Of a stretch of 46,242 nt of DNA, positions 18,201-37,053 are shown one piece after another. This DNA is from a virus. The stretch covers positions 1-46,242 of the IMG/VR virus record IMGVR_UViG_3300030060_008146; one strand, given 5' to 3'. The position numbers and the translations under genes are program-made. The notes under the pieces are model-generated. The model did not search any database and had not been told where the DNA came from. It saw nothing but the letters and a program-made list of their open reading frames with translations. Within the stretch, counting starts at the first letter, position 1. Every line of letters starts with the position of its first letter.

Positions 18201-21200
18201 AATTGTATTACAAAGTAAAGAATCAATACCAACTGCAACATGAACATTACCTGATGTGTTACTATGTAGAGCACGATGACCAACCGCAGTTTGATTATTT
18301 GTTACATTAGCGCTTAATGCACAATTTCCAACTGCAACGTTATTACTTAGAGTATTGCAAAATAGCGCTTTGCTTCCAACTGCAACGTTATTGTTACCTG
18401 TTGAATTTGTTTTATTAGATTGGCAACCTATAGAGACATTACGATCACCTGTCGTGTTACAAGCTGCAGCGCCACATCCAACAGCTACGTTACGTAGTCC
18501 TTCTGTATTATTTGTTAATGCACCTTCACCTACGGCAACGTTTTGATAACCTGTGGTATTGGCTAACATAGCCTGTAAACCAATTGCAGTGTTTTGTCCT
18601 CCTGAAGAACTGTTTAAAGCTTGTGTACCAAATCTTGTATTAGCCGTACCAGCATCACTACAATAACCACTTAACGAGCTTACACTTCCGCCTACAGTTA
18701 ATTTATCTGTAGATATGGTTAACTTAGCAACCCCGGTATGTATTTCAGGACCATCAGCTATTACAAAACTATCTGCAGATTGGTCCACCCCTGCCGCCCA
18801 GCATTTTGTATCTTGATTATATCTTATTTGAGGGTCAGCATTACTACCTAATATACTAACACATAAACCAGATGTACCTATATCTCTTTCGAAAGTACCA
18901 AGAAGTGCAGACCCTTGTACGCATATACCACCTAAAGCATCGTCATCATCAACATGTAGTAGAGTGCCCGGCTTAATGGTGTTAATACCAACCCTGCCGG
19001 CAAAATAATTAGGACTAGGTCCAGCAGCACTTAAACTTCCACTAGCGCTTATGTTACCGAGTACAGTTAATTTTTCTGCTGGTGCTGTTGTCCCTATACC
19101 AACCTTACATTGAGATATATAACTATCCGCGTCACTATGTATAACAGTTCTCGTATTGCCCCCGCTGTCGTTAATACAAATCACCCCGTCGTCTGACGCA
19201 TTCCCTACTACAACTGATTGTATTCCTGCTGAATTGGTTGTTGCAACTTCACCCCTGACTGTTAATTCTTGACTTGGTTTATTAGTACCAATACCAACGT
19301 TACCTTCAAAATAGTTATTAGCACCTGAAGCACTAAGACCACCAAATGCACTAATACCACCACTGTGTGATCGTAATATACTGTTGCATATACATGCAGA
19401 AGTATACCACATTGGTATATAATTAGCTGTACCAGCACCTTTAACCCCTTGACAATCTGTAGTACAAAATATATGAGCTAAATCGCGACCAGCTGAAACA
19501 AAACCTCTCGTTGTAGCTGCAGCACAAATACTATTAGCACTAAGACCATTTTGCGCACTTATACCACCAGCTACAGTAAGTTTTTCTGCTGGTGCTGTTG
19601 TACCAATACCTACATCACCAGAATTAGTAATGGTAAATAACTCTGTTCCTCCATCACTATTTAAGAGACGAGTTCTATTAGAGCCACCTCTAAATTCTAA
19701 TTGGTCACTAAGTGCTGATGCTCTAAATAAATCTGCGCGAACAGTTGATGAGTCGAAGTTAACAATATCTGAATTAGTAACCTTTATAGCCTCTGAACCG
19801 TTACCTTTAATAGTCAAACGACCATCCTCCAAATGAAGTTTTGTGTCAGGTCTACATGTACCTATACCAACCCTACCAGCAAAATAGTTTACATCACCTG
19901 AAGCACTTAACCCACCAAATGCACTCAAACCACCACTATGTTCTCTTAATATACTATTGGTTATTCCCGTAGTACTACACCACCTTGGTATATAATTTGT
20001 TGTACCAGATCCTCCTATAGTACCTCCTCCGGTTGAAAATATATTAGCTAAATCACGACCAGCAGAAACAAACCCATTAGTTGTAGCTGCAGCACAAATA
20101 CTATTAGCACTAAGACCATTTTGTGCACTGATACCACCAGCTACAGTTAGTTCCTCTGCAGGAGCTGATGTGCCGATACCAACGTTGCCGGAAGTCCTAG
20201 GAATTGTTATAACTGGGTTATCATCTGATACTGTTGTATTATTAACATCATGAACTCCAAGTATAAAATTGTTATCAGCACCATCGTATTGAACATAACC
20301 ACCTAACCAATTTGCACTTCCTTCAATAAGACGAAGTTTTGATCCCTCATCATCATTTCCATTGCTCTGAATAGCTAATGTTGCTGCACCAGATTGACAT
20401 ATATGAAGTGGATACTGAGGAGAAGTTTCACCAATACCTACATTACCATCCTGTTTTATTGTCAGAACCTCAGTAGCATTATTATCATTATTAATACTAA
20501 ACCTTCCATCAGTTTGGACTTTTAAACTAAAATCTTTATTATTCCCAGTTTCTTTAAGTACAAACCGTGGAGCAGTCGCTTGAAGTTGACCATCTCCCAC
20601 CACATCCAACTTGACCATTGGGTTAATAGTACCAATACCTACATTACCAGCAAAATAATTATCGCTACTTCCTGTTGCGCTTAATGAACCTAAAGCGCTT
20701 ATATTTCCGCTTACTGTTAATCTTTCTTGGGGTGTTGCTCCACCACCAGCTAGGGTAGCTATTGGTATACCTAACCCTACATAACCGTTGTCTGAAAATA
20801 CTATATCATCACCGTTAGCATCTACGAAATGAGCTATAGGTTCACTACCTTTTTGTTGTACATATAATGCAGGACCGGTACCAGAATTAATTACTGAAAG
20901 AGCAGAAGTAACTGTAACGTTAGTATCTATATAGTGCATATCTCCTTGCACACTAAGATTACCTAAAATTGTAGCATTATTACCAACATTTAAATTATTT
21001 GTCGCGCTTAAACTACCACCTATAATAGCTGTACATCCAGAGGTTCGTATTATACTATCACCTATACAACAACCTGAAGTAAATTTTGCTATAACATTTG
21101 TCGTACCACAGCCACCTATACCTCCAGCAGATCCTCCAGGACCAAAAACATCTAATAGATCAACTCCAGCTGATACTATAGATCTAGATGCATATATGTT

Positions 21201-21599
21201 TTTTCCACTAATGTCGCCAGTAATAGATAGATTATCACCTATAAGGTTAGAGTTACTGACTTCAGCCCAGCTTACTGTACCATCACCGTTTGATTTAAGA
21301 AATAAATTACCAGGTATATTTGTTGATTTTATTTCAACACCTTGAACACTTACATATTCACCAGAAATAGGTCCCCCGTTCCATGTTCCGAGATAATTAT
21401 TAGAGAATATATAATTATTCGACGCGATTCCTTCACATACATATAATGCGCCATAAGCGCTCATGTTACCGGCAACGGTTAAACCAGAAGGAGTTCCAGT
21501 ATCAACCGGAGGTACACCGATACCTACGTTACCTAGGAATAAATTATTTCTTCCTTCACTTACTTTAAGTAAAGATGGTGCTGGACTTTGTTTCCCCAT
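9258..21599 (-). CDS. Giant modular tail-fibre protein (4113 aa)
   Basis: The gene is 12.3 kb. The protein is a long string of modules, each with 'xxYFAGNVGIGTxxPxEKLTVxGNISAxGxLSA' followed by a variable beta-rich insert of 60-120 residues. A block of 17-residue NTAVG-type repeats lies near residues 985-1160. The C-terminal ~110 residues (FLIDHPTKPGYKLKHG, EAPEWGVQFRGK, ITLPEYW, YVVYGERKD) match the terminal domain found in fibres of T4-like marine phages. Cys residues are unusually frequent for a virion protein. Nearly identical blocks (GRDLAxIFCTTD...ANYIPMWYTS...CNSILRSHS) recur four or five times. It heads the fibre operon behind a late promoter and is probably the main long-tail-fibre subunit. 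Confidence 0.9.
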   Translation of the reverse strand: MGKQSPAPSLLKVSEGRNNLFLGNVGIGVPPVDTGTPSGLTVAGNMSAYGALYVCEGIASNNYIFSNNYLGTWNGGPISGEYVSVQGVEIKSTNIPGNLFLKSNGDGTVSWAEVSNSNLIGDNLSITGDISGKNIYASRSIVSAGVDLLDVFGPGGSAGGIGGCGTTNVIAKFTSGCCIGDSIIRTSGCTAIIGGSLSATNNLNVGNNATILGNLSVQGDMHYIDTNVTVTSALSVINSGTGPALYVQQKGSEPIAHFVDANGDDIVFSDNGYVGLGIPIATLAGGGATPQERLTVSGNISALGSLSATGSSDNYFAGNVGIGTINPMVKLDVVGDGQLQATAPRFVLKETGNNKDFSLKVQTDGRFSINNDNNATEVLTIKQDGNVGIGETSPQYPLHICQSGAATLAIQSNGNDDEGSKLRLIEGSANWLGGYVQYDGADNNFILGVHDVNNTTVSDDNPVITIPRTSGNVGIGTSAPAEELTVAGGISAQNGLSANSICAAATTNGFVSAGRDLANIFSTGGGTIGGSGTTNYIPRWCSTTGITNSILREHSGGLSAFGGLSASGDVNYFAGRVGIGTCRPDTKLHLEDGRLTIKGNGSEAIKVTNSDIVNFDSSTVRADLFRASALSDQLEFRGGSNRTRLLNSDGGTELFTITNSGDVGIGTTAPAEKLTVAGGISAQNGLSANSICAAATTRGFVSAGRDLAHIFCTTDCQGVKGAGTANYIPMWYTSACICNSILRSHSGGISAFGGLSASGANNYFEGNVGIGTNKPSQELTVRGEVATTNSAGIQSVVVGNASDDGVICINDSGGNTRTVIHSDADSYISQCKVGIGTTAPAEKLTVLGNISASGSLSAAGPSPNYFAGRVGINTIKPGTLLHVDDDDALGGICVQGSALLGTFERDIGTSGLCVSILGSNADPQIRYNQDTKCWAAGVDQSADSFVIADGPEIHTGVAKLTISTDKLTVGGSVSSLSGYCSDAGTANTRFGTQALNSSSGGQNTAIGLQAMLANTTGYQNVAVGEGALTNNTEGLRNVAVGCGAAACNTTGDRNVSIGCQSNKTNSTGNNNVAVGSKALFCNTLSNNVAVGNCALSANVTNNQTAVGHRALHSNTSGNVHVAVGIDSLLCNTIGANNVAVGGYALQCSLTGSNNTAIGYTAGMNLSGTTMGQNVLVGSNAGRYTRSGATWHNGCSNTYIGFNTRATCNGVQNETVIGNAALGCGSNTVSIGNADVTTTYLQGSVSARNTLYAGSNLCINADNPTNAVIGQSRIGNYVGDNAYFSHFDNGTSANYAVKQNANGATGLNSKTGQILTLNINNNPQLTVNAEDIGIGTTAPNEKLTVAGNISALGALSATGGVHVPDSGKITAGNHKDLQIYHNGTHNFVTAEGGAGSLYIRPGSGNTVQIEDKDGQDMITAGGAGAVSLYYNNSKKFGTTNTGVDIFGSLSAANSICTAATTNGFVSAGRDLANIFCTTDREGVMGTGTANYIPMWYTSSCICNSILRSHSGGISAFGGLSASGDVNYFTGKVGIGTNRPEANLEICSALDQQHLYIQGANSGVGALARLKTISSGSVLLLETGTASDSRDILKAKNSAGTVLNLQADGKLGIGTEVPNETLTVAGNISALGSLSATGGVHVPDSACITVGNHKDLQIYHDGSNSYIRDESGTGDIIVSTNAYRLKSANNGETMMTAFEDGAVNLYHNNISRFSTTDSGVCVVGGLSASATTYGFVSAGRDLADIFSTTDGDITEVEAGTGLNGGGTVGCVTLNVDAAQTNITSILNTSLNIGRDTDNSIKFGNDNCIKFHVSGGENVLFKGDGEIEACYVNVAGKVGIGTPDPDQLLTIGGSEAVAMLSSTNGRCTCLQQGGGHFHIKPNMGCVAIANGQSTAGKLQIYNNAFENIRLNSNGDSWLSGGDVGIGTCTPGAKFHIRGHGSTGGLRIDNGSGGSDNVNFYHADGGNDSDFFITYQGTGGAEITLKADGDTLLNASNGDNVGIGTTSPDEKLDVTGSIRSYTSSGRYRTLGGSSADLEIVSDNGSNPVALIKGTGTADLLNVLDNTTEVFTILDGGDVGIGTTAPAEKLTVAGNISALGALSATGGVSVPDNSKITAGNNKDLELYHNGSLSYVRDVGTGGLHIQTNGPAIYLQDTDGNAMAQFTDGGSNFLMYNSAIKLTTKNTGVDITGGITASQSISTGGPLSGSSVSVSDTTRGFVSAGRDLAHIFCTTDNVGVQGAGTANYIPMWYTSACICNSILRSHSSGISAFGGLSASGDVNYFAGKIGIGTNSPSEQLTVAGGISANGGLSALNIKLPGSGEGYYIGKSGGGALNGGSDLRIGSRTTANTIALELYHASNPVSLGIDYDGGAALPFIESVHGSYDINTHLRFMPGGSETWRIGSHGSSGTYGNSYEIKPAAAGNDFYVSNNSGTPILYSDTSTARIGIGTAAPAEKLTVLGNISASGSLSAAGPSPNYFAGNVGIGTTDASAAKLTVAGNISADGNMYVRHNNPFIYMTDTSGSTYNAAWKFQDNCQFWEWGGGKKLYFDASSGIRFGDWGAGTGTLATTRDPRIGKCGTAYGGLCFTTGNSTRMVIQSAGNVGIGTDAPEGKLHVSTGASSQTCTTGADELIIEGSDHAGISILAPAAKRTQLYFNTDAFLRWVDSDDVFTIDTSSASSKIAIGTGGANVGIGTNAAEEKLKVCAGTVKIDSGYSYKIDTCACLTHIYNNFRIYNNIGDFIIENDDALKDVIFCTDAGSKVETMRLSATGQLGVGTAAPREKLTVHGNISASGSLSAAGPDNNYFEGKVGIGTNSPDQELTVAGNLKLTSTYPRIFLQDTNNDSDFSIINNDGNFGIYDDTNTTYRTSITPAGNFGIGTTAPNEKLTVAGNISAVGTLSAAKGVHVPNSVCITAGNHKDLLIYHNGANSYIRNQHSGDFFIRTDDSSSSLVLAHGAEKSFLSVCGGRAELRFNDNKKFETTDDGVCVTGKLCTTGEAYIGSNTTVMGNLSVCGDMIYIDTSVTVTSALSVVNSGTGPALFVAQEGSEPIAHFVDRNGDDVVIDDDGAVGIGIYSPQSKLHVSSGNIRIDNNQQYLAETAGGGVIGVAKMDGSDNLLIGDGNLKIDVTGTSTMMTIDSSGNVALGDDKKFKGTTYASSYIKFNDDTKVSANSDIIFDVNGSDELMRLEEGGNVGIGTVAPAEKLTVLGNISASGSLSAAGPGPNYFAGNIGIGTITPQSLLDITGATPTVTVSGTSTASSKVNLINGDITWGLENQYVGGATTNMFRIYNGSLGADALTIHRSTNNVGIGATNPGTKLEVAGAKGSDGVVIVADTTSAAAGVGGEIDFYGAYSGTTRTVFGSIEAKKTNATGGDYGAGLALSTRVNGGGGLTERLTILEGGNVGIGTPAPAEKLTVLGDISASGSLSAGGTSPNYFASKVNIGTPTISSRILYVCGDGEFSSNLVVGNALYTNDWTASSSGIQYIKNNTGSVSVAIENGGDVGIGTVAPAEKLTVHGNISASGSLSAAGPSPNYFAGNIGIGTNSPSGSLNLVNNCSLRFGTGGNFRFYHDGSTNFVESHSGDIIFYNYDHGNDIVFCAENSSGTAAEYIRIDSSANNTCVKQNFRFADNVTAGFGTNEDFTISHNDTNALLIGTKGNITFCNQASDADILFKADDGYGNEVDYLRLDGGEEQILIGTGLPVSAGNVGIGTTTPNEKLTVFGTISGRCDIKTTCGTILGKVINASSCFAGTKLDAQYVSNAAELCLTSGKSGSVRIGTSQGFAMTLSANASAPRVGIGTDTLNEALNLPDGYKIGLGCSADLQLYHDGNNKIEGTTGYTRVAATNGILYLDGNNTCIRSGDGGETQAKFLDDGAVELYHDNSKKFETTSTGICVAGLSATSEVAVPDDGKITAGNHKDLQIYHDGSNSVIKDSGTGALFLLADASTNIQTTGGEAQAKFTKDGSVDLYYNGSKKFETTNTGVCVTGCIAGSTGAVIIDGDLTGVNHFSACTKAFLIDHPTKPGYKLKHGAVEAPEWGVQFRGKTDKSCITLPEYWKGLVRDDSVSVILTPVGSYQCLYVKCQSNEHICIGGVSDCYNYVVYGERKDIDRMEVEVDGV
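14755..20095 (-). repeat. Dispersed near-identical coding repeats in the giant fibre gene
   Basis: A block of about 200 bp recurs at roughly 14755-14960, 17010-17230, 19300-19525 and, more diverged, 19870-20095. It encodes 'YFxGxVGIGT' upstream and then 'FGGLSASG', 'CNSILRSHS', 'NYIPMWYTS' and 'FVSAGRDLA' pieces. The first three copies differ at only a few positions over long stretches. Such copies are ready substrates for homologous recombination, module loss or module shuffling. Confidence 0.85.
18120..18645 (-). repeat. Second 17-aa repeat block, homologous to the array in the 1548-aa fibre
   Basis: About ten units encode NTAIGLQAM, NVAVGEGAL, NVAVGCGAA, NVSIGC and NVAVGSKAL in the same order as the units NTAIGLQSM, NTAVGEGAL, NVAVGCGAA, NVAIGC and NVAVGSKAL of the other fibre gene. 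Conserved unit order implies that a whole segment was copied between the two genes. Confidence 0.85.
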
Positions 21600-24098: not shown

Positions 24099-24150
24099 TA
24101 TTTACTATTATTATTTTATTGTAGTGACCCCGTTTATCAAGGTGTATTAT

Positions 24151-24156
24151 TAAATA
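24151..24156 (+). promoter_or_regulatory. Late promoter (TAAATA-N5-GTG)
   Basis: ATTAAATA is followed by exactly five bases and the GTG start at 24162. This supports a non-ATG start for the downstream gene. Confidence 0.68.
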
Positions 24157-24161
24157 ATTTA

Positions 24162-24443
24162 GTGGAAGATTTTTTAAAACTCGTTACAGATGTTGGATTT
24201 CCGATAGCTGGTGCTATTGTATGCGGAAGTTTTGTATTCATAATTCTAAAGTTTATACTCAGTGAAATAACTGGAGCAGTAAAAAGTTTAGGAGGAATGA
24301 TTAAATCGTTAGAAAATAGAGTTCAAACTATGAATAATGATATTGTAAAAATTGATACGCTGGTATCCTATGCATTTAATAAGCATCCAAATTTAGATAG
24401 ACTAGCAGCTAACGAAGGTAAAGAGGATGCAAGAAAAGATTAA
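24162..24443 (+). CDS. Small membrane protein with coiled coil, paralogue 1 (93 aa)
   Basis: GTG start fixed by the late promoter. A single hydrophobic helix (about residues 12-33, GFPIAGAIVCGSFVFIILKF) is followed by a heptad-like amphipathic stretch (GGMIKSLENRVQTMNNDIVKIDTLV). The next gene has the same layout ('GFPxxxAxxxGxFVxxxxxxxxxEI...' then 'IDRIRMLDNDMIRLNTKI'), so they are tandem paralogues. The topology resembles small phage holin-like or i-spanin-like proteins, but a separate lysis cassette exists at 39-40 kb, so a role in envelope remodelling, superinfection exclusion or the curli operon downstream is equally possible. Confidence 0.75.
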   Translation: MEDFLKLVTDVGFPIAGAIVCGSFVFIILKFILSEITGAVKSLGGMIKSLENRVQTMNNDIVKIDTLVSYAFNKHPNLDRLAANEGKEDARKD

Positions 24444-24745
24444 TGAACGGAGATACTTTAGTACAGGCAATTAATGATTTCGGCTTTCCAGTTATTGCTG
24501 CTGCTGGTTTAGGTTACTTTGTTTATTATACATGGAATTGGGTAGTTAAGGAAATCAAGCCTGTATTAGATGAATCGACAGGTACTCTGATAGGTTTAAT
24601 TGATAGAATAAGAATGCTAGATAATGATATGATAAGACTTAATACTAAGATTCAAATGATTCTTCAAGAGAAAGAGCAAAAAGAAGAAGAAGATATAAAA
24701 GAAAATAGAAAAAGAAATAGGCGTATTTTGGATACTAAGCTCTAG
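24443..24745 (+). CDS. Small membrane protein with coiled coil, paralogue 2 (100 aa)
   Basis: The ATG overlaps the stop of paralogue 1 by one base, so translation is coupled. One transmembrane helix (about residues 12-33, GFPVIAAAGLGYFVYYTWNW), a coiled-coil stretch with the DND core shared with paralogue 1, and a strongly charged C-terminal tail (EKEQKEEEDIKENRKRNRR). Two paralogues made in equal amounts suggest a hetero-oligomer. The function is unknown. It is followed after 33 bases by the curli-type operon. Confidence 0.75.
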   Translation: MNGDTLVQAINDFGFPVIAAAGLGYFVYYTWNWVVKEIKPVLDESTGTLIGLIDRIRMLDNDMIRLNTKIQMILQEKEQKEEEDIKENRKRNRRILDTKL

Positions 24746-24764
24746 CATTATATATTAATAGAGG

Positions 24765-24770
24765 TAAATA
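24765..24770 (+). promoter_or_regulatory. Late promoter of the curli-type operon
   Basis: TAAATA lies eight bases before the csgF-like ATG at 24779, slightly farther than the usual five. It would drive csgF and csgG together. Confidence 0.5.
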
Positions 24771-24778
24771 ATAGTGTT

Positions 24779-25243
24779 ATGAAGTGTTTATGTTTCTTAG
24801 TACTTTTATGTAGCAGCAGTCTAGCTAATGAATTAACATTTAGGTTTAAATCTCCTTCATTTAGTGGTATTGGGTATAGTGCGCATAAGATAAATCTAGA
24901 AAATATATCTGCGGCTAGAAAGAAAACAATTAGAGATGAATTAAAATCATTAGAAATTCAAGCTAATTTAGCTGCCCAAAGAACTCCTTTGAATGTATTT
25001 ATGACTAATTTACAGTCAAGGATTTATTCAGAGCTCTCTAAACAGGTTACAGAGCAACTATTCGCTGATACAGGTTCAGATTCAGGTTCTTTTAATCTTG
25101 ATGGTAATACTATATCATGGTATAGATTAGCTGACCAAATAAATCTGACAGTAACTGATACTGATGGTGATCTTACTAACATATTAATTCCTATTGGATC
25201 ACTTCTATTACCTGAGCCAACTAATGAAACAACTACTGAATAG
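24779..25243 (+). CDS. csgF: CsgF-like curli assembly factor (154 aa)
   Basis: A signal peptide (MKCLCFLVLLCSSSLA, cleavage near residue 16) is followed at once by 'ELTFRFKSPSFSG', which aligns with the mature N-terminus of E. coli CsgF (TMTFQFRNPNFGG). In E. coli this segment inserts into the CsgG pore. The C-terminal part, with predicted beta-strands (ISWYRLADQINLTVTDTDGDLTNILIPIGSLLLP), matches the CsgF end that contacts nascent curli. The gene overlaps csgG by 20 bases, as expected for partners. It acts in the periplasm and outer membrane. No csgE is visible. A csgF gene on a T4-like phage is unusual. Confidence 0.85.
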   Translation: MKCLCFLVLLCSSSLANELTFRFKSPSFSGIGYSAHKINLENISAARKKTIRDELKSLEIQANLAAQRTPLNVFMTNLQSRIYSELSKQVTEQLFADTGSDSGSFNLDGNTISWYRLADQINLTVTDTDGDLTNILIPIGSLLLPEPTNETTTE

Positions 25244-26108
25244 TCTTTTAAGTTTAACACTTTTAAGCGGTTGCGCAACTTTTAATGATAGTGAACTTAA
25301 TAAACCTCCTATCGTAGCTCCAACCCCTTTACAAAATAAATTAACTACTATACCAGAATTAGATGGTGAACCTATTTATATTGGAGTTAATAGCTTTAAA
25401 GACTTAACTGGAGCAAGAAAACAAGCTGATAATTATGCAAGTTTCTCTTCTGCAGTTACTCAAGGTGGTGAAGCATGGTTAATTGAATCTCTTTTAGAGT
25501 CAAATGGTTGGTTTAAAGTTTTAGAAAGAGGTCAATTAGATACAGTAATGAGAGAAAGAGCTTTAGTTCAACAAACTAGAGAAGACTTTACTGATGATGA
25601 TGAAACTGGATTAAAACCTTTATTATTCGCTGGATTGCTTATACATGGAGGAATTATAAGTTATGATACTAATATGATTTCTGGTGGTGTAGGAGCTGCC
25701 TACTTAGGTATAGGTGCTCATGAACAGTACAGGAAAGATGTGGTTACTGTATCATTAAGATTAGTAAGTACGTTAACGAGTGAGATTCTTCTATCTTCAA
25801 CTGTATCAAAAACTATATACTCAACCTCACTAGGATCAGATGTATTTAAATTTGTTAACCAAGCTTTAGATTCTCTTGAATTCGAAATAGGATATGCTAA
25901 AAATGAGCTAGTATCGGTAGCTACTAGAGCAGCTATAGATTTAGCTATTTTAGATTTAATTGAAAAAGGAGAAAAAAATAAAATGTGGAAATTTAAAAAA
26001 AGTACTGTAAAAAATTTACCTAAACTACCTGAAAAAGAACTAGTTAAAAAAGAACAATTAAGTAAAAATAAGAAATATAAGTCTTCGTTTAATAAAATAA
26101 AAAGATAG
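25224..26108 (+). CDS. csgG: CsgG-like curli secretion channel lipoprotein (294 aa)
   Basis: The start at ATG 25224 gives a classical lipoprotein signal with lipobox LLSGC (Cys17). The mature part follows E. coli CsgG closely: EPIYIGVNSFKDLTG, the constriction region DNYASFSSAV (E. coli YPASNFSTAV, so the pore Phe is kept), WFKVLERGQLDTVMRER, SYDTNMISGGVGAAYLGIGA, VVTVSLRLVSTLTSEILLS and the C-terminal helical part. CsgG forms a nonameric outer-membrane pore that secretes curlin subunits. The last ~35 residues are Lys-rich and unlike E. coli. Overlap with csgF and the curlin-like gene 20 bases downstream point to a complete secretion unit. Confidence 0.93.
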   Translation: MKQLLNSLLSLTLLSGCATFNDSELNKPPIVAPTPLQNKLTTIPELDGEPIYIGVNSFKDLTGARKQADNYASFSSAVTQGGEAWLIESLLESNGWFKVLERGQLDTVMRERALVQQTREDFTDDDETGLKPLLFAGLLIHGGIISYDTNMISGGVGAAYLGIGAHEQYRKDVVTVSLRLVSTLTSEILLSSTVSKTIYSTSLGSDVFKFVNQALDSLEFEIGYAKNELVSVATRAAIDLAILDLIEKGEKNKMWKFKKSTVKNLPKLPEKELVKKEQLSKNKKYKSSFNKIKR

Positions 26109-26116
26109 ATTTTTAA

Positions 26117-26122
26117 TAAATA
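26117..26122 (+). promoter_or_regulatory. Late promoter (TAAATA-N5-ATG) of the curlin-like gene
   Basis: AATAAATA in the eight-base region after csgG is followed by exactly five bases and ATG 26128, giving the presumed secreted substrate its own transcript. Confidence 0.65.
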
Positions 26123-26127
26123 ATTTT

Positions 26128-26958
26128 ATGAACATAAAATCTATTTTAACAGCTATTCTTTTATCAAGTGGTTTAGTATTCTCTTCAAATGAAATTTACT
26201 TAGACCAGATTGGTAGTGCTGGTATATTTAATATATCTCAAATTGGATCCAGTAACAAATTAGGAGAAGGTACTAATCGATCTAGAATTGAAGGAGAAGA
26301 AGTTATTTTTAATGTAGCAACTATAGGTAACGAAAATTTAATAGATATCGACTCTATTGGAAATGAAGAAGTAGTAAATCTTCAAGTAGAAGGTGATGCT
26401 AATGACTTTATTTTAGCTCTTGAAGGTGATCAAAACACTGTAAATGCTTTTGTAGCAGGAGATTCAAACAGCGTTTTAATTGCAGGAGACCAGGAAGATA
26501 CTCAAAAAGCTACTGTAAATAACGGATTAATAAATTTAAATGTGGAGGGTGCTTCAAATGATATAGAACTATTACTATTTGATACATCATATACTTTTAC
26601 AGATTATTTCATTGGTGGCTCTTTAAATACCATTAGCTCTTATCAAGAAGGTCACGGTGGATTAATCGGACATTCACAGCTAGTTGATGTTTTCGGTAGT
26701 AGTAATAATTTATTGATATCTCAAGTAGGTTCTGAAAGTCAATTTATTGAGCTCTCAGTTTTAGGAAATGAAAACACATATCAAATATATCAAACTGATG
26801 GAAGCTTTGAGCCATCATTCATGCCTGAGCAAATTGGTAACGGGGTTAACCCAGTTAACGATTTTACAAATCCTGATGGTATTCCAAAAGTTCCAACACT
26901 TGTTATCGAACCACGTCCATTATTACTCGAAGGTATTGTTCTCGAACAGGGTCAGTAA
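26128..26958 (+). CDS. Secreted curlin-like repeat protein (276 aa)
   Basis: A signal peptide (about residues 1-19, SILTAILLSSGLVFSS) precedes repeats that follow the curlin pattern x-Q-x-G-x-x-N-x-x-x-x-x-Q-x-G: LDQIGSAGIFNISQIGSSN, IGNENLIDIDSIGNEE, VEGDANDFILALEGDQN, and later VFGSSNNLLISQVGSESQ and VLGNENTYQIYQTDG. CsgA and CsgB use such repeats to form amyloid beta-helices. The Gln/Asn ladder is incomplete in the middle repeats. The C-terminal 45 residues (PEQIGNGVNPVNDF...VLEQGQ) are Pro-rich. It lies right behind csgG with its own late promoter, so it is probably the substrate of the CsgF/CsgG channel. Whether it forms amyloid is untested. Confidence 0.8.
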   Translation: MNIKSILTAILLSSGLVFSSNEIYLDQIGSAGIFNISQIGSSNKLGEGTNRSRIEGEEVIFNVATIGNENLIDIDSIGNEEVVNLQVEGDANDFILALEGDQNTVNAFVAGDSNSVLIAGDQEDTQKATVNNGLINLNVEGASNDIELLLFDTSYTFTDYFIGGSLNTISSYQEGHGGLIGHSQLVDVFGSSNNLLISQVGSESQFIELSVLGNENTYQIYQTDGSFEPSFMPEQIGNGVNPVNDFTNPDGIPKVPTLVIEPRPLLLEGIVLEQGQ

Positions 26959-27859
26959 TATAGTTCTTATAATAAGTTTTGTCTTATTACCTATACTTGC
27001 TTACGCTGACATAGGCAGTGTAACGTCTCAAACTAAAGCAGCTAGAATTACCCGCAAAGGTGATAAATTTCTTACTGAAGTTAATACTTCAGTTGAAATG
27101 AGAGATTTAATCGAAACCTTAAAAGGTAAAGCTAATATAAAATTTATAGATGATACTAAAGTGAGTGTTACGGAATATTCTAAACTTTTAATAGATGAAT
27201 TTGTTTATAACCCGGAAAAGAAAACAGGTAAGCTATCATTAAAAGCAGCATTAGGTACTATAAGATACTCTTCAGGTAAAATTGCTAAAAACTCTCGACA
27301 AAATGTAAAGATAAAATCTCCAACTGCTTCAGTTACTGTAAGGGGTACTGATTTTACTATGAATGTTCAAGAAGATGGAGCTAGTAGTTTTCTATTATTA
27401 CCATCAAAGGATGATGCCGGTAACTCGTTTGTTGGATCTATAGATGTTTCAACTCTTGGAGGTACTGTTACTTTAAATAAAGCGTATCAAGCAACTACTG
27501 TTACTTCAGCTATAGCAGCACCAACACCACCGCAAATTATACAGCAAGATGGTCCTCAAGTAAAGAAAGATAAAAATAAAAAAGAAAATATGGAAGAAGA
27601 TAGAAAGCCAGAAGATGATAAAAAACAACAAGATTTTGAAGATATTGAAATAAAAAGAAAAGAAAAGAAAGCCACTAATGCTTTTTTAAAAATGGATGAT
27701 GGGAGATATGTTTTCTTTTCTAAAGATAAAGATAACGTTATTTCTCTTATAGTAGAAGATGGTAGTAATGTTACTGTAAATTATGATAATAGAGGCAGTA
27801 TTATTAACGCTAAGATGAACTCAGGTAATAACGTACAATTTAATATAAAACAACAATGA
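26936..27859 (+). CDS. FecR-domain secreted protein (about 307 aa)
   Basis: The FecR core is clear: 'DIGSVTSQTKAARITRKGDKFLTEVNTSVEMRDLIETLKGKANIKFIDDTKVSVTEYSKLLIDEFVYNP', then 'GKLSLKAALGTIRYSSGKIAKNSRQNVKIKSPTASVTVRGTDFTM', typical of FecR beta-helical domains. The Lys/Glu-rich linker (about residues 205-245) is followed by a short C-terminal domain. The start is uncertain: TTG 26936 gives a signal peptide ending LLPILAYA and a 23-base overlap with the curlin gene. The in-frame ATGs at 26768 and 26876 lie far inside the curlin gene and add sequence that is not signal-like. It overlaps the cyclase gene by four bases. FecR and CHASE2-cyclase genes are often linked, suggesting a sensor pair. 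Confidence 0.8.
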   Translation: MFSNRVSNIVLIISFVLLPILAYADIGSVTSQTKAARITRKGDKFLTEVNTSVEMRDLIETLKGKANIKFIDDTKVSVTEYSKLLIDEFVYNPEKKTGKLSLKAALGTIRYSSGKIAKNSRQNVKIKSPTASVTVRGTDFTMNVQEDGASSFLLLPSKDDAGNSFVGSIDVSTLGGTVTLNKAYQATTVTSAIAAPTPPQIIQQDGPQVKKDKNKKENMEEDRKPEDDKKQQDFEDIEIKRKEKKATNAFLKMDDGRYVFFSKDKDNVISLIVEDGSNVTVNYDNRGSIINAKMNSGNNVQFNIKQQ

Positions 27860-29913
27860 AATTTTTTAATATTAAAAACTATCTTATATGTCTATTTATA
27901 ACTACACTTTTGGTAATATTAAGAATGATAGATCCATTCTTTGTAGAAACTTTAAGACTCAAAGGGATAGATTACTATCAAACTAAACAAGAAAAGGTAA
28001 AATCAGAAAATATAGCTATAGTTGAAATTGATGAAGCAAGTTTAGATCAAAATGGTCAGTGGCCTTGGAATAGAGAATTAATAGCTAATGGTGTAGAAAA
28101 AGCATTTGAAAGTGGAGCTCAACTAGTAGTTATACCTATTTTATTTGCAGAAAAAGATAGACTAGGTGGTGATGAAAAATTAATAAAAGTATTAAGTGAG
28201 TTACCGGTAATAATAGGTCAATCAGCAAGTACTAAAGGAAAAGGTTCACCCATACCTCGAGGGTTAGCTAGTATAGGAGAAAGCTTAGATGGGTGGTTAT
28301 ATGATTATCCAGAAGCGATAGGACCGGTTGAAAGTTTAGGACAATATGCCGCGGGGGTAGGTATGATAGTAACAGCTCCGGAGCTCGACGGGGTGGTGAG
28401 AAGGCTGCCATTGGTTATTCAGATTAAGGGAGAAGCGTATCCAACTATACCTTTAGAAGTTATACGTATGTTTGCCGGAGAACAGTCATACCAAGCTAAA
28501 GTTGATTTAGGTGGAGTTGAAGCTATAAGAGTTCCAGGATTTGACCCTATAAAGACTGATGCTAATTCAAGAGTATGGATAAATTATAAATACAAATTTG
28601 ATAAAGTTTCTTTTGCAAATGATGATTGGTCTGTAGTAAAAGATAAAATTGCAGTTATAGCTTTAACAGGAGAAGGTCTAAGCAATACCATTGCAACCTC
28701 TACTGGTATAAAGTATGGACATGAAGTAACTAGCTCAGCTTTACAGATGATAATAGATGAGTCAAGGTTGCAAAGACCAGCAGAAGCTACTATATATGAA
28801 GTTTTTATTACAGCTGCTTTTTGTTCTTTATTAATAATTGGTGCATTATGGTTATCTTATATAGCAAGTTTAGCTATTATAACAGCTGCATTAGCAGTAG
28901 GACCAATATTAGGAAGTCACCTCTATAATAGTAATGGGTGGCTTATAGATTATACATGGCCTATAACATGCATTTTTATTACTTGGTCAGTAGCAACATT
29001 TATAAGATTTATAAACGAAAATAAATCAAAACAGCAGATTAAGAAACAATTTGAACATTATTTAGCACCACCCATTGTTAAGTTGTTACAAAAAGATCCA
29101 ACCTTACTAAAACTAGGAGGTGATACTAGAGAGTTATCAATTCTCTTTAGTGACTTAAGAGGGTTCACAACTATTAGTGAACATTTTAAAACTAACCCTC
29201 AAGGTCTTACTGAACTAGTTAACAGATACTTAACACCTATGACTGGTTGTGTTATAGAATATAATGGTACAGTTGATAAATTTATTGGAGATGCATTAAT
29301 GGCTTTTTGGAATGCTCCTCTCGATGTTGAAGATCACAAAGTACAGTCAATTAATTGTGGGTTAAGAATGTTTGATCTCCTAGCTAAATTAAACAGAGAA
29401 GTAATGGCTGAAGGGGTGGATGAACTTAAAATAGGAGTAGGAATTAATACAGGTGATGTTGTCGTTGGTAATATGGGATCTGAACAGAGATTTGATTATA
29501 CTTGTTTAGGTGACGCTGTTAATTTATCATCTAGACTTGAAGGTCAAACTAAAGAATATAGAGTAGGTTTAATTATTGGTGAAGGTACTGTTAAAGATAT
29601 AGAGCATAGATTTAGCTTTGTAGAACTAGATAAAATAGCTGTTAAAGGTAAAAAAGAAGGGGTAAGAATATTTACTGTGTTAAATAATACTTCATTATGC
29701 TCTAACGGAGGTAATGTTGAACACCATAACACGTTTTTGTCTTTTTATAGAAAGCAGCATTGGAATAGAGCTATTAAAATGATTGATTTAAATCAAATTA
29801 CTTATCCGGAATTAAAAGACTATTATGAAATGATGCGGGAAAGAATAGAAAATCTTAAAAAGAATAGACCAGGAAAGGGTTGGGATACAATCTATAGAGC
29901 TACTTCAAAATAA
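27856..29913 (+). CDS. CHASE2-domain class III adenylate/guanylate cyclase (685 aa)
   Basis: Order: a membrane helix (about residues 9-23); a CHASE2 extracytoplasmic sensor domain (about 35-300), recognisable by 'IAIVEIDEASLDQNGQWPWNRELIA' and 'AAGVGMIVTAPELDGVVRRLPLV'; three membrane helices (about 310-385); and a class III cyclase domain (about 420-610). The cyclase shows metal-binding Asp in SILFSDLRGFTTISE and in FIGDALMAFWNAP, a substrate Lys in TVDKFIGDA, and DYTCLGDAVNLSSRLE. All are intact, so the enzyme should be active, more likely on ATP because of the Lys. ATGA overlap with the fecR-like gene. It would make a cyclic nucleotide in the infected cell's cytoplasm in response to an envelope signal. 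Rare in phages as far as I know. Confidence 0.93.
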   Translation: MKFFNIKNYLICLFITTLLVILRMIDPFFVETLRLKGIDYYQTKQEKVKSENIAIVEIDEASLDQNGQWPWNRELIANGVEKAFESGAQLVVIPILFAEKDRLGGDEKLIKVLSELPVIIGQSASTKGKGSPIPRGLASIGESLDGWLYDYPEAIGPVESLGQYAAGVGMIVTAPELDGVVRRLPLVIQIKGEAYPTIPLEVIRMFAGEQSYQAKVDLGGVEAIRVPGFDPIKTDANSRVWINYKYKFDKVSFANDDWSVVKDKIAVIALTGEGLSNTIATSTGIKYGHEVTSSALQMIIDESRLQRPAEATIYEVFITAAFCSLLIIGALWLSYIASLAIITAALAVGPILGSHLYNSNGWLIDYTWPITCIFITWSVATFIRFINENKSKQQIKKQFEHYLAPPIVKLLQKDPTLLKLGGDTRELSILFSDLRGFTTISEHFKTNPQGLTELVNRYLTPMTGCVIEYNGTVDKFIGDALMAFWNAPLDVEDHKVQSINCGLRMFDLLAKLNREVMAEGVDELKIGVGINTGDVVVGNMGSEQRFDYTCLGDAVNLSSRLEGQTKEYRVGLIIGEGTVKDIEHRFSFVELDKIAVKGKKEGVRIFTVLNNTSLCSNGGNVEHHNTFLSFYRKQHWNRAIKMIDLNQITYPELKDYYEMMRERIENLKKNRPGKGWDTIYRATSK

Positions 29914-30917: not shown

Positions 30918-32039
30918 GTGTACGTTAAAGGATCAAATAAAAATGTAGAATATAAAAAAGAAGATCATTCTTTTTATAGGGGCATTGTTATTAATAATGA
31001 AGATTTAAACAAACGAATGAGAGTTCAAGTTTTTATTCCTGAAGTATCTAATCAGCCTTATACTAGTTGGTTTTCTGATTATCAAAATGCTTCACAAGAA
31101 ATGAGATACCCAGGTTACGGTCCTCTAACAAAAGATATGGTATTAAAATTAAAGGATTTATTACCATGGGCAGAGCAATGTTCTCCGTTAATGGGTGAAT
31201 CAGGTACATCACATTACTATGCTCCAGACGGTGAACAACGATCGAAAGCAACATATGTTGAAACAGCTACTAAAGACACACCACCTAATGCGATAAAAGG
31301 AGGGAGTATGCCTCGTAGTACAATGACTAATAAAGATGCTGCTACTGTTACAGATGCATGGGCAGACGGTATGTATGGTAAAACGAATCCAACCGGTGGG
31401 GTTTATGCACCAAAAAACTCCGGTCCCGACGCGTCAGGTGTATACGGTATACCGCCAGTTGGATCTCACGTGTGGGTTTTTCATCACCGTGGTGATTTAA
31501 ACTTTCCAATTTATTTTGGTGTTTCTTCTAGTTATAGGGATTCTGGTCTTGTATGGGATAATGATGAACAAACCTACCCAAGTACATATGAATCTAGTGT
31601 TGGTGACACGCCACCGGAACCTGATCAAATAACTACAAGTTCAAGTTCTACAGTAGAACAATATCCCCCAGGTGCGTTAAACGCTTCGGGTTATAGAGCT
31701 ACAGCTTATGGTAATGTATATGAAGAAGGTACACCTAACAACCCAAGAGGTAATGGGCGTCTTTTAGATAGAACAACTCAAGCTGATATTGATAAAGGAG
31801 ATATTAAATGGGAGTGGCAGTGGAAAGGTAATAAAGGTAACGATCTAGTACCCGGTTATAGTGTTGCATCTAATAGATTTCCACATGGTACAAGGCTCTT
31901 AATAAACGGAAAAGAATACAGGGTAGATGATACCGGTGGTATGAGTGATAATGTTATTGATTTTTATGCAGGAGGTAACAGACAAATGTACAATCGGTTC
32001 GCTACTATGAACATTGAATCAATCGAGGTTATAAGATAA
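30918..32039 (+). CDS. gp5: Baseplate hub / gp5-like protein with C-terminal 3D lytic domain (373 aa)
   Basis: The N-terminal ~180 residues match the gp5 OB-fold: FYRGIVINNEDLNKRMRVQVFIPEVS, a LPWAEQCSPL segment and YGIPPVGSHVWVFHHRGDLNFPIYFG. After a Ser/Thr linker the C-terminal ~120 residues are a 3D domain (MltA/RlpA-like double-psi barrel): YRATAYGNVYEEGTPNN, ASNRFPHGTRLLINGKEYRVDDTGG and NVIDFYAGGNRQMYN, with the conserved Asp residues of 'DDTGG' and 'IDFY'. In T4 the lytic module of gp5 is a lysozyme, so a domain swap has occurred. It would locally open peptidoglycan during infection. The GTG start is fixed by the late promoter. The next gene begins at its stop. Confidence 0.85.
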   Translation: MYVKGSNKNVEYKKEDHSFYRGIVINNEDLNKRMRVQVFIPEVSNQPYTSWFSDYQNASQEMRYPGYGPLTKDMVLKLKDLLPWAEQCSPLMGESGTSHYYAPDGEQRSKATYVETATKDTPPNAIKGGSMPRSTMTNKDAATVTDAWADGMYGKTNPTGGVYAPKNSGPDASGVYGIPPVGSHVWVFHHRGDLNFPIYFGVSSSYRDSGLVWDNDEQTYPSTYESSVGDTPPEPDQITTSSSSTVEQYPPGALNASGYRATAYGNVYEEGTPNNPRGNGRLLDRTTQADIDKGDIKWEWQWKGNKGNDLVPGYSVASNRFPHGTRLLINGKEYRVDDTGGMSDNVIDFYAGGNRQMYNRFATMNIESIEVIR

Positions 32040-34417: not shown

Positions 34418-36064
34418 TTAACCTTGACATGAAGCGCAATTAAGTATATTTCTTGCTAGCTCCTGCGCTGGGTTTGCGCTTCTTTGATAGTATAATGACT
34501 TTATTCCACTTTGCCAGGCGTAAATTAAAAGCTCATTTACTTCTCTTGGTTTTGTCTCAGGTGGTATCATTAGATTAAGTGACTGTCCTTGATCAATATA
34601 TTTTTGACGCATGCCTGCTTGAATAATAATTTCTTTCTGTGATATCTCACCAAAAGTTTTAAAGACGTCTTTCTCTTCTTCAGATAAAAATTTTAAATGC
34701 TGAACACTTCCTCCATGGTTTAAAATACTCTTCCATGTCGTTGCATTATCTTTATCTTTATCTTTTAACAACTTTACAAGATGTGGATTACGATAAGTAA
34801 ATTTACCCTTAGCTAAATCTTTTGTAAAATAATTCGAATTAAGGGGTTCTATAGAAGGTGAAACTTGACCTAATATAAATGAACTACTTGTTGTTGGTGC
34901 TATAGCCATCGTTGTAGCATTACGAATACCATATCCTTTGCAAAGCTCTGGCTCACCAAAAAGTTCAGCCAATTCTCTAGTAGCATTATCACACCTTTCT
35001 TTAATTAGTACAAACACTTCTTGATTAATGCCTTTCGCCATTAATGATTCAAATGCAATCATTTTAGATTGTAAATACGTATGCCACCCTAAAACTCCAA
35101 CCCCTAACGCTCTCTGTCTTACAGCAAAATTATGTGGTGCTTCCATATACTTTACACCCTCTGTCTTTTTAATAAAATCAGACATTACAGCATCTAAAAA
35201 ATAAACCAACGTTTCAATTGCATCAGTTTCTTTAATCTCGTCCCACATTGCTAGATTTAAAGAAGATAAATCACAAACAAATGACTCGTCTTCATCGTTA
35301 GATAGAAATATCTCTGTACAAAGATTACTTGCATTAATTGTTTTATTTTTATCTTTATAAACTTGTGGAGCATTATTATTTGCTGTATCTGTCCAAAAAA
35401 TGTAAGGGTAACCGGTTTCGTATCTCTTTTTAATTATTTTAGCCCAAAGTTTACGTTTTTCTTTATCACCATCTACTACTGACTGCATCCATTCATCTGT
35501 TATACAAACACCGAATGATAAATCTTGTATAGGATCTCCTTCAGATCTTATTCTCAAAAATTCATCAATATCAGAATGATCTACCGGTAGGTAAGCTGCA
35601 AAAGAACCTCTACGTACATTGCTTTGTGAAACATAATTTATGAGAGCGTCAAACACTGTTAACTGGTGATGTACTCCGGTGGCAGCTCCACCAGAAGAAA
35701 TAGGTGCACCTCGAGGTCTTACAGCTCCAAAGTAACCTGAAGTACCACCTCCTACCTTAGACATTGTACCTACTTCAGATAATTTAGTAAGAATTTTTTC
35801 CATATCATCTGGAATAAAACTACCAAAGCAAGAAATTGGTAAACCTCTCTCTTTACCAAAATTAGACCAAATAGGAGATGATAAAGAGTAGAATCCTTTA
35901 GACATATAGTCGGTAAATTTTTCTGCATATCCTTTTATTTTAAGATAACTCTCAGCAGTTTTTGCAATAGTTTCAATTCTTTCTTCAGGTGTTTCACCTT
36001 CTTCAAGATAGCCTCGCTTTAAAAACTTTTTAGAGTCTGCGTTTAACCAACTATAGTTTTTCAT
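34418..36064 (-). CDS. nrdA: Ribonucleoside-diphosphate reductase class I, large subunit (548 aa)
   Basis: Reduces ribonucleotides to deoxyribonucleotides for phage DNA synthesis. Catalytic residues are present: Cys79 in GLPISCFGSF, the NLCTEIF motif (Asn, Cys, Glu of the active site), CDLSSLNL with the partner Cys, the tyrosine pair in SLYYQRS for radical transfer, and the C-terminal redox pair NCASCQG. The protein starts directly at the catalytic barrel; the N-terminal ATP-cone of cellular NrdA is absent, so dATP feedback inhibition through that site is not expected. It starts two bases after nrdB stops, in the same operon. Phage-type short NrdA. Confidence 0.95.
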   Translation of the reverse strand: MKNYSWLNADSKKFLKRGYLEEGETPEERIETIAKTAESYLKIKGYAEKFTDYMSKGFYSLSSPIWSNFGKERGLPISCFGSFIPDDMEKILTKLSEVGTMSKVGGGTSGYFGAVRPRGAPISSGGAATGVHHQLTVFDALINYVSQSNVRRGSFAAYLPVDHSDIDEFLRIRSEGDPIQDLSFGVCITDEWMQSVVDGDKEKRKLWAKIIKKRYETGYPYIFWTDTANNNAPQVYKDKNKTINASNLCTEIFLSNDEDESFVCDLSSLNLAMWDEIKETDAIETLVYFLDAVMSDFIKKTEGVKYMEAPHNFAVRQRALGVGVLGWHTYLQSKMIAFESLMAKGINQEVFVLIKERCDNATRELAELFGEPELCKGYGIRNATTMAIAPTTSSSFILGQVSPSIEPLNSNYFTKDLAKGKFTYRNPHLVKLLKDKDKDNATTWKSILNHGGSVQHLKFLSEEEKDVFKTFGEISQKEIIIQAGMRQKYIDQGQSLNLMIPPETKPREVNELLIYAWQSGIKSLYYQRSANPAQELARNILNCASCQG

Positions 36065-36066
36065 AC

Positions 36067-37053
36067 TTAAAATAAATCTTCTTCATCAAATGACTGGTTT
36101 TTCTTAGAATATTCTGTAGGTCTAGTATGGAAGAAATCTGCCATATTGTTTCCCATTAATTCTTCTTCAAACCACATTGTAGCCTCGAGAGAATCATTAT
36201 CAACTTCAAACGGTGAGTTAAAACCTATTTGTTCTAAAGAAGAAATAATTCTATTTTTAATAAAACCTTTTAATAAATCAGCATTTAAACCATCTTCTTT
36301 ATAACCATTAACCATCCAATCAACAATTTTACTCTCTGCTGTTAAAGCTTCTTCTGCTTCGTGAAGTATTCTTTTTTCTAATTCTTCGTCAAATAATTCT
36401 GGATGCTCTTCTCTAATAGTATTAATGATCTTAATACCAACTAAAGCATGAATATTTTCTTCATTCCTTGTATATTTTACTTGTTGATCTGTATCTTTAA
36501 GAACATTTTTATTTCTTGCAAACCAATTAACAATATAAAATTGTGAAAATAATGAAACATTTTCAACAAAAAGTGTAAAGAGTATTAAAGCATATAAATA
36601 TTGCTTTTTACTATCTTTATAAAACTTATGTGTATATTTACGTAAATACTTTACACGTCCCTGAATCCATTGCAGTTTTAAATTTTCTTCAAAGACATCT
36701 TCCAGCCCTAAAATTTGTAATAACCTTTCATACGCGTTGTTATGTATAACCTCAACATTAGCCATTACATAACCTAAATCACATAATGATGGGTGAGGTA
36801 AATTTTCACCTAACTTAGCCCAAAATGTCTTAACAGCAACTTCAATTTGCCCAATAGCTGAAAGTGTACGTACAACAATCTCTCTCTCTTGATCAGTTAG
36901 TTCAACTTTAAATTGTTGAATATCTGACTTAAATGAAAACTCCTTATCAGTCCAGAACCCATTATGCATCGCTTCAATGAACTGATCCGTCCATGGATAC
37001 AAATTAGGTTTTCTAGATAGCTGCTCTGTAAATATAGTAATCCCGTCTCCCAT
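36067..37053 (-). CDS. nrdB: Ribonucleoside-diphosphate reductase class I, small subunit (328 aa)
   Basis: Generates the radical for NrdA. Visible di-iron ligands: Glu71 in GQIEVAVKTFW, Glu101 and His104 in VEVIHNNAYERLL, Glu in LFVENVSLFSQF, and Glu/His in RNEENIHALVGIKI. The radical tyrosine Tyr108 is four residues after the first ligand His, as in E. coli NrdB. The C-terminal tail ends QSFDEEDLF, the acidic-aromatic peptide that docks on NrdA. The start ATG 37053 has TAAATA three bases upstream and AAGG about 11 bases upstream, so an SD-driven start on a leadered mRNA is plausible here. It leads the nrdB-nrdA-clpP operon. Confidence 0.95.
   Translation of the reverse strand: MGDGITIFTEQLSRKPNLYPWTDQFIEAMHNGFWTDKEFSFKSDIQQFKVELTDQEREIVVRTLSAIGQIEVAVKTFWAKLGENLPHPSLCDLGYVMANVEVIHNNAYERLLQILGLEDVFEENLKLQWIQGRVKYLRKYTHKFYKDSKKQYLYALILFTLFVENVSLFSQFYIVNWFARNKNVLKDTDQQVKYTRNEENIHALVGIKIINTIREEHPELFDEELEKRILHEAEEALTAESKIVDWMVNGYKEDGLNADLLKGFIKNRIISSLEQIGFNSPFEVDNDSLEATMWFEEELMGNNMADFFHTRPTEYSKKNQSFDEEDLF

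Follow-up and report, generated by a model that had tools for sequence, protein, structure and literature searches.

A 46,242-nucleotide virus record (IMGVR_UViG_3300030060_008146, analysed over its full length and hereafter called the window), from a marine T4-like phage, carries curli-type secretion genes followed directly by genes for a FecR-domain protein and a CHASE2 adenylate cyclase. We tentatively read this set as a type VIII (curli) secretion system that the phage expresses late and that contains its own reporter, in which FecR would tether the exported amyloid and the cyclase would signal export state as cAMP; our confidence in this reading falls a little short of even. Curli genes in phages have posed a puzzle since 2020, in part because the fibre genes were believed missing and because the accompanying FecR, 'HK' and cyclase genes were seen as odd regulators. 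The puzzle can now be put to the test, given a substrate that is always encoded, a conserved CsgG–CsgF interface, a curlin-type tail on FecR, and FecR and cyclase genes that already stand beside curli genes in one bacterial lineage. The module supplies concrete proteins for studying the way in which a lytic marine phage remodels the surface of its host.

Locus organization and late-type motifs

Seven forward-strand genes, flanked by a GTP cyclohydrolase-like/thymidylate kinase-like cluster and by baseplate genes, belong to one module, comprising the csgF-to-cyclase set (24779-29913) and two small genes, S1 and S2 (24162-24745):

24145..24161, + strand: late-promoter-type motif TTAAATA, upstream of S1, the motif 11 nt ahead of the gene
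24162..24443, + strand: S1, small coiled-coil protein of 93 aa with a single TM, opening the module (phrog_18771, 2.1e-28)
24443..24745, + strand: S2, 100-aa paralogue of S1 (phrog_18771, 1.2e-30)
24764..24778, + strand: late-promoter-type motif GTAAATA, upstream of csgF
24779..25243, + strand: CsgF homologue (PF10614, 7.4e-18), N-terminal CsgG-binding peptide kept
25224..26108, + strand: CsgG outer-membrane export channel (PF03783, 4.3e-50), lipobox LLSGC identified by eye
26114..26127, + strand: late-promoter-type motif AATAAATA, upstream of the curlin-like gene
26128..26958, + strand: curlin-like repeat protein, signal peptide present, presumably the export substrate (family HMM, 3.7e-51)
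26936..27859, + strand: FecR-domain protein, TTG start (PF04773, 2.3e-9); signal peptide, FecR domain, disordered linker and curlin-type C-terminal tail
27856..29913, + strand: CHASE2 sensor (PF05226, 4.6e-35) and class III adenylate cyclase (Guanylate_cyc PF00211, 1.4e-20), catalytic residues intact

By ORF coordinates, csgF and csgG overlap by 20 bp, a 19-bp gap separates csgG from the curlin-like gene, the latter overlaps the FecR gene by 23 bp, and the FecR and cyclase genes share a 4-bp ATGA overlap. An earlier reading made from the sequence alone had these genes, their order and their spacing exactly right, as judged from ORFs and Pfam; its phrase 'fused by overlap' describes compact, overlapping genes with no gene fusion, and its gene list overlooked the small genes at 24162-24443 and 24443-24745.

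That reading had also placed late promoters before csgF and the curlin-like gene. The exact motif TATAAATA occurs 13 times against 11.1 by chance, showing no enrichment, and was dropped as late-promoter evidence in favour of a positional test. The looser core TAAATA lies 9-18 nt upstream of the start codons of 11 of 30 genes, as against 0.95 in shuffles (shuffle maximum 6). This core stands at both places, and also before the gene at 24162. Late-type motifs also precede the endolysin-like gene at 38991-39731.

Contig integrity, selection and linkage

Two other IMG/VR contigs align to the region across 7.6 and 16.6 kb with 99.3-99.7% identity, ruling out a chimeric contig and with it the concern that the region might be absent from phage genomes of the same lineage. 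Values of dN/dS between 0.01 and 0.23 across all seven genes indicate purifying selection. Among phage loci with enough flanking sequence, csgF, csgG, curlin, FecR and cyclase genes were all present at 36 of 36 loci fetched with csgG, 31 of 31 fetched with the cyclase (AC) and 22 of 22 fetched with FecR, so that the genes are linked in every relative that could be assessed, contrary to the possibility that they might prove unlinked. The sequence-only reading is supported as regards a late-expressed system that exports a fibre or amyloid and is coupled to a membrane cyclase, the genes being intact and conserved.

Export channel and presumed substrate

The CsgG profile matches E. coli CsgG structures at 3e-61. 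The CsgF peptide F..P.F.G, the Phe contacts of which with CsgG are known (PMC7304575), conserves its F, P, F and G at 93-99% across 148 non-redundant phage CsgFs. Pfam gives no direct match for the curlin-like protein; its relatives reach PF07012, an HMM built from 97 distant phage curlins finds it at 3.7e-51 (0 matches in 200 shuffles), and the family profile matches a solved curlin-repeat chain (8c50) at 2.3e-12. Its structural model is a string of short beta strands spanning residues 26-223 (mean pLDDT 80) and gave no significant fold match in the PDB. CsgE was found in 0 of 11 phage records by a search that detected the E. coli positive control, and it is also missing from published alphaproteobacterial and pelagiphage systems (PMC9599517); CsgB, CsgC and CsgD were not seen within the module. 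Judged from sequence, the module has the CsgG channel, the CsgF with binding peptide and the curlin-repeat substrate of a type VIII (curli) system.

FecR tail and CHASE2 cyclase

The FecR AlphaFold model, built on an alignment of IMG/VR and genome-contig loci and the window only, comprises a beta domain (residues 27-199, pLDDT about 95), a disordered stretch (206-245) and six strands (248-306, C-terminal part pLDDT about 80). The C-terminal motif [aliphatic]x[aliphatic]xQ occurs in 87 of 90 phage FecR proteins versus 0 of 14 ordinary ones; it is also found in 64 of 102 first curlins and 45 of 60 second curlins, and among controls in 0/89 CsgG, 3/93 CsgF and 1/82 cyclases. A one-repeat curlin HMM gave just three feeble matches on FecR, all within the C-terminal 65 residues. 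By fold the model matches two PDB entries, the FecR-family protein PupR (6ovk, E 1.5e-3) and the cell-surface anchoring domain of MpAFP (5ix9, E 8.9e-3, 1.2 A over 62 residues); the latter is also the best PDB match of the sequence profile, although a weak one (E 0.14), and NCBIfam retention_LapA is matched by 3 of 41 FecR members. A cytoplasmic anti-sigma domain of the FecIRA type is absent, as a signal-peptide-type helix directly precedes the FecR domain and no other Pfam domain is found. The fibre-like tail suggests that FecR anchors the fibre to the cell and signals to the sensor.

The cyclase retains its key residues DKDTNR (two metal Asp, substrate Lys and Thr/Asp, transition-state Asn and Arg), bearing out the earlier remark that key residues look intact, and all 82 of the 82 non-redundant relatives keep the metal Asp pair, Lys and Arg. 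A search for a cAMP receptor found none in 18 of 19 phage records, so any cAMP effect would run through the host. At 22 of 93 alphaproteobacterial CHASE2 places a FecR gene is no more than 5 kb away, versus about 0.65 expected, and CHASE2 cyclases also cluster with FecR-domain genes in Campylobacterota (PMC9239204). In Sinorhizobium meliloti, deleting CHASE2 from CyaD1 gives constitutive cAMP production; the FecR-domain protein SMc02177, whose locus tag places it next to the CHASE2 cyclase, is dispensable for signal perception, which counts against a FecR-sensor model (both PMC5498481).

Proposed mechanism and alternatives

We propose that Sec would export all secreted parts, that CsgG and CsgF would form an outer-membrane channel, and that the curlin-like repeat protein would cross it and then assemble at the surface. 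FecR would act as tether and nucleator, its FecR domain remaining periplasmic, its disordered linker of ~40 residues threading the channel and the curlin-type strands at its C terminus joining the fibre; in this role it would replace CsgB, and perhaps also the CsgE plug, the latter being absent from these phages. The inner-membrane CHASE2 cyclase, possibly through contact with FecR, would sense the state of FecR or of export on its periplasmic side and produce cAMP in the cytoplasm. The benefit is probably a changed surface of the infected cell, leading it to aggregate or to keep other phages out; this is the weakest step. The lack of clumping of Melnitz-infected cells (PMC9004378) counts against the model, as do the feeble curlin-HMM matches of the FecR tail. 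The module may also have the sensing and ecological roles named by the sequence-only reading. A bolder version, which we consider doubtful, makes FecR a new kind of curli part, with a retention-type domain in the periplasm, a curlin-type tail through CsgG into the fibre and a CHASE2 cyclase whose cAMP output would follow the state of the fibre or of export; phages and a few alphaproteobacteria would then carry an outside-in amyloid sensor.

Curli export could instead be real while FecR and the cyclase constitute a separate sensor, of envelope stress or cell contact, that travels along, the FecR tail being a curlin-type export signal by which FecR leaves the cell as a minor fibre subunit. This reading, possible but on the unlikely side, draws on FecR-CHASE2 pairs that occur without curli genes and on the tail motif common to FecR and the presumed export substrates, whereas in phages FecR and cyclase are never apart from csgFG where flanks permit a check.

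The two small proteins bear on a less probable proposal. S1 is homologous to S2 (hhalign 98%, E 2e-14) and has a dN/dS of 0.01-0.07. S1/S2 alone fetched 145 viral loci, 134 with other module genes and the remaining 11 with S1/S2 at or near a contig end; across the phage collection and IMG/VR they are found solely alongside the module, and one clade carries the module without them. A general phage holin is therefore not supported, and histidine kinases are ruled out by the lack of any domain match (no kinase domain, and no HATPase_c above cut-off in 19 phage records); we infer from position that S1/S2 correspond to the published 'HK' genes. The twin proteins constitute a phage-side, curli-linked family. 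Their holin-like size as small single-TM proteins, and the late-type motifs common to the module and the endolysin-like gene, fit the suggestion, put forward for Melnitz (PMC9004378), that the CsgG pore is a pinholin-like or secretin-like lysis or leakage device with a diverged CsgF and no fibre. We judge this improbable: the curlin gene is always present in phage loci with enough flank, so the premise of no encoded substrate is wrong; the CsgF peptide that docks in CsgG is conserved; the chromosomal bacterial version has no lysis context; and CsgG's site is the outer membrane, without proton-motive force. Least probable of all is a nutrient-uptake pore in which CsgG admits siderophores or cofactors and FecR senses iron (suggested in PMC7029224 and PMC9599517), which leaves the constant curlin and CsgF unexplained and sits poorly with a FecR that has a signal peptide, a curlin-type tail and no Pfam-detectable anti-sigma domain.

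Comparison with known systems

The FecR model has a fold match to the LapA/MpAFP adhesin retention module (5ix9, E 8.9e-3), the sequence match being insignificant (E 0.14); LapA/MpAFP adhesins, however, leave the cell by a type I system rather than CsgG. Campylobacterota and alphaproteobacterial clusters share a FecR-domain protein adjoining a CHASE2 cyclase but have no curli genes and an ordinary FecR without the tail (PMC9239204). E. coli curli (csgBAC/csgDEFG) has homologous CsgG and CsgF and a curlin-type substrate, whereas the phage module has no CsgE (11 relatives), CsgB, CsgC or CsgD and adds FecR and cyclase. Closer is a chromosomal operon in Caulobacteraceae contigs (L384, L385) with the order csgF-csgG-curlin-curlin-FecR-CHASE2 cyclase and a FecR tail of similar type; it differs in its two curlins ahead of FecR, its lack of S1/S2 and its bacterial chromosome context, and in a midpoint-rooted tree its CsgG groups with that of phage L149, adjoining other bacterial CsgG.

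Closest are pelagiphages. The sequence-only reading had mentioned curli-type genes in some marine T4-like phages 'but not this combination'; HTVC008M and Melnitz carry it, with the window's gene order in their annotated genomes, and Wittmers et al. 2022 (PMC9599517) described a csgF-csgG-csgA/B-FecR-(csgA/B)-AC module, with one or two small genes ahead, in podo- and myophages. Literature on pelagiphage transcriptomes yielded nothing on module genes. The HTVC008M and Melnitz modules share the small gene(s), csgF, csgG, curlin, FecR and cyclase with the window, the proteins being 39-48% identical (tblastn), but their flanks (ssb/2OG oxygenase and tape measure) are unlike the window's, and the histidine kinase placed ahead of the module by Wittmers et al. 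is absent from the window's module. The window's set is thus a fresh member of an already published module, from a CsgG clade separate in the tree from the HTVC008M/Melnitz type and with no second curlin gene separating FecR from cyclase. Added here to that module are the FecR/cyclase linkage counts, the curlin-type tail of FecR, the Caulobacteraceae operon and the finding that S1/S2 are not histidine kinases.

Genomic setting and integrity of the module

The window, a 46-kb contig (35.7% GC) of a T4-like myophage in IMG/VR, carries the following features.

52-774, major head protein
3062-7708, minus strand, second very large repeat-rich fibre-type gene (1548 aa)
9258-21599, minus strand, giant fibre-like gene (4113 aa, repeat-rich)
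24162-29913, plus strand, seven compact genes: S1, S2, csgF, csgG, curlin-like, FecR-domain and CHASE2 cyclase
30918-32039, phage baseplate-type gene
34418-37053, ribonucleotide reductase
38991-39731, endolysin-like gene

Coordinates, overlaps and gap given for the csgF-to-cyclase genes in a sequence-only reading proved exact. A chimeric contig, which that reading had named as its possible undoing, is contradicted by two further contigs that match the window (99.3% over 7.6 kb and 99.7% over 16.6 kb) and span both module edges. Compared with relatives whose proteins are about 75-98% identical, all seven genes have dN/dS of 0.01-0.23 (one S1 comparison, with saturated dS, yielded no ratio), and neighbouring genes are similar. 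Of 30 genes, 11 have a TAAATA core 9-18 nt 5' of the start codon, where 0.95 would be expected and 2000 shuffles gave at most 6; marked genes include S1, csgF, the curlin gene, the endolysin-like gene and tail genes, bearing out the late-promoter-type motif noticed earlier ahead of csgF and the curlin-like gene. Placement of the core before S1, csgF and the curlin gene suggests that the module would be expressed late, as three transcription units. Compared with window positions 24779-27859, a second phage locus (L009, IMGVR_UViG_3300029319_009044) is nearly identical from csgF to FecR (dS 0.07-0.16), with S1, S2, the cyclase and flanking genes much more diverged (dS 0.42-1.34), so this block is a putative recent recombinational swap.

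A published module, constant in phages

We surveyed 379 IMG/VR loci with HMMs from the window and the annotated marine phages HTVC008M and Melnitz, and counted module genes in those loci whose flanks reach 4 kb or more ahead of csgG and 7 kb or more beyond it. Rather than being unlinked in relatives, csgF, curlin, FecR and cyclase genes accompanied csgG in 36/36 csgG-fetched, 31/31 cyclase-fetched and 22/22 FecR-fetched loci, counts that are of loci, not independent lineages, with some contigs shared among sets. S1/S2 were present in 28, 29 and 20 of these, respectively. Because csgF and csgG were described in pelagimyophages (Zaragoza-Solas 2020, PMC7029224) and Melnitz (Buchholz 2022, PMC9004378), and the full module including FecR and cyclase by Wittmers 2022 (PMC9599517), the window is a further member of a published module.

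Ten to 14 loci per fetched set carry a second curlin gene; the window has none. In HTVC008M, gp18 (locus L002, 6639-7964) joins a PA14 domain to curlin repeats, and second curlins of other phages begin with different heads at the N-terminus, an arrangement that would suit display of binding domains on the fibre. One 6.8-kb contig (L383, NZAX01000026.1) is catalogued as bacterial ('Flavobacteriaceae' MAG) but has the phage-form module including S1/S2 and is probably phage sequence in a bacterial bin.

Secretion genes and S1/S2

CsgG shows family-level similarity to E. coli CsgG over its whole length. It has been proposed that CsgG and CsgF no longer pair in Melnitz (PMC9004378), but the CsgF N-terminal F..P.F.G peptide is 93-99% kept across 148 non-redundant phage sequences, and the matching E. 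coli region lines the CsgG lumen, with Phe24, Phe26 and Phe31 touching CsgG (PMC7304575); this conservation speaks against lost pairing. The curlin-like protein matches the phage-curlin family HMM (3.7e-51) and, by profile, 8c50 (2.3e-12); its AlphaFold model, a succession of short strands, had no significant match in a PDB fold search. Fibres, cAMP production and a benefit to the phage are predictions here. Clumping was not seen in Melnitz-infected cells (PMC9004378).

S1 and S2 are homologous to each other, and each has a single hydrophobic segment ahead of a probable coiled coil. With S1/S2 as the sole query, 145 loci were fetched: 134 have other module genes, and in the other 11 the contig ends at or close to S1/S2. 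Some phages have the module without them, including a 297-kb contig (G392, behind locus L016). By position, we infer that they are the genes that Wittmers et al. name HK (PMC9599517). We reject the histidine kinase assignment: S1/S2 gave no kinase match, and none of 19 phage records, among which are HTVC008M and Melnitz, has an HATPase_c domain that reaches its cut-off.

A curlin-type tail on FecR

Pfam found no domain besides FecR in the phage FecR. In the AlphaFold model of the window protein, residues 27-199 form a beta domain, 206-245 are disordered and 248-306 make up six strands. An [aliphatic]x[aliphatic]xQ motif ends within 5 residues of the C-terminus in 87/90 non-redundant phage FecRs, a descriptive count, the motif having been spotted by eye beforehand and the sequences sharing ancestry. 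It also ends 64/102 first and 45/60 second curlins, but 0/14 other bacterial FecRs, 0/89 CsgG, 3/93 CsgF and 1/82 cyclases. A stricter motif occurred in 49/90 tails; 9/990 body windows had it, and shuffling the tails gave 2.7. The phage FecR thus differs from ordinary FecR in its curlin-type tail.

Fold matches of the structured part are to PupR, an expected result for FecR, and to 5ix9, an adhesin anchoring domain, to which sequence similarity is weak (E 0.14, over the mature N-terminus); retention as in adhesins is a lead, with homology putative. Because of the tail, the domain-linker-strand model and the 5ix9 match, we model FecR as a tether, its domain periplasmic, its linker passing through CsgG and its tail joining the fibre. 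A simple co-receptor role appears less probable, because the S. meliloti FecR neighbouring a CHASE2 cyclase is dispensable for the cyclase's signal perception (PMC5498481).

CHASE2 cyclase

Both metal Asp residues, the substrate Lys and the Arg are kept in 82/82 non-redundant relatives, with T, S or D at the second substrate position. Class III cyclases with Lys and Thr at the substrate positions use ATP and produce cAMP, and these residues point to ATP as substrate, with cAMP the predicted product. In 19/82, Melnitz included, Ser replaces the transition-state Asn, coupled with Asp at the substrate position, marking a subclade with a predicted altered catalytic site. One of 19 module-bearing phage records, G392, encodes a cNMP-binding domain (97202-97444); none was found in the other 18.

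Bacterial relatives

FecR lies within 5 kb of CHASE2 at 22/93 CHASE2 places among the matches listed, versus about 0.65 expected under uniform placement; this adjacency is wider than the curli module, and the pairing is published for Campylobacterota (PMC9239204). Among 385 sampled genomes, five alphaproteobacterial csgG loci besides those of the Caulobacteraceae described below have csgF, csgG and curlin-like genes, with no module-type FecR or cyclase in their 18-kb stretches. In the open-access journal literature searched, we found no earlier report of the FecR tail, a bacterial operon with FecR and cyclase, a reassessment of the HK genes or the PA14-curlin composite of HTVC008M gp18.

Curli genes with FecR and cyclase do occur in at least one lineage of bacteria, since the order csgF-csgG-curlin-curlin-FecR-CHASE2 cyclase is found on two contigs, of 32 and 82 kb, from Caulobacteraceae MAGs. 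In the one examined in full (L385), bacterial metabolic genes surround the operon, and FecR has a C-terminal tail of the phage type. Transfer from phage to bacterium or the reverse would fit the tree. Relative to the window, the Caulobacteraceae operon has two curlins before FecR and lacks S1/S2, but gene order is otherwise alike.
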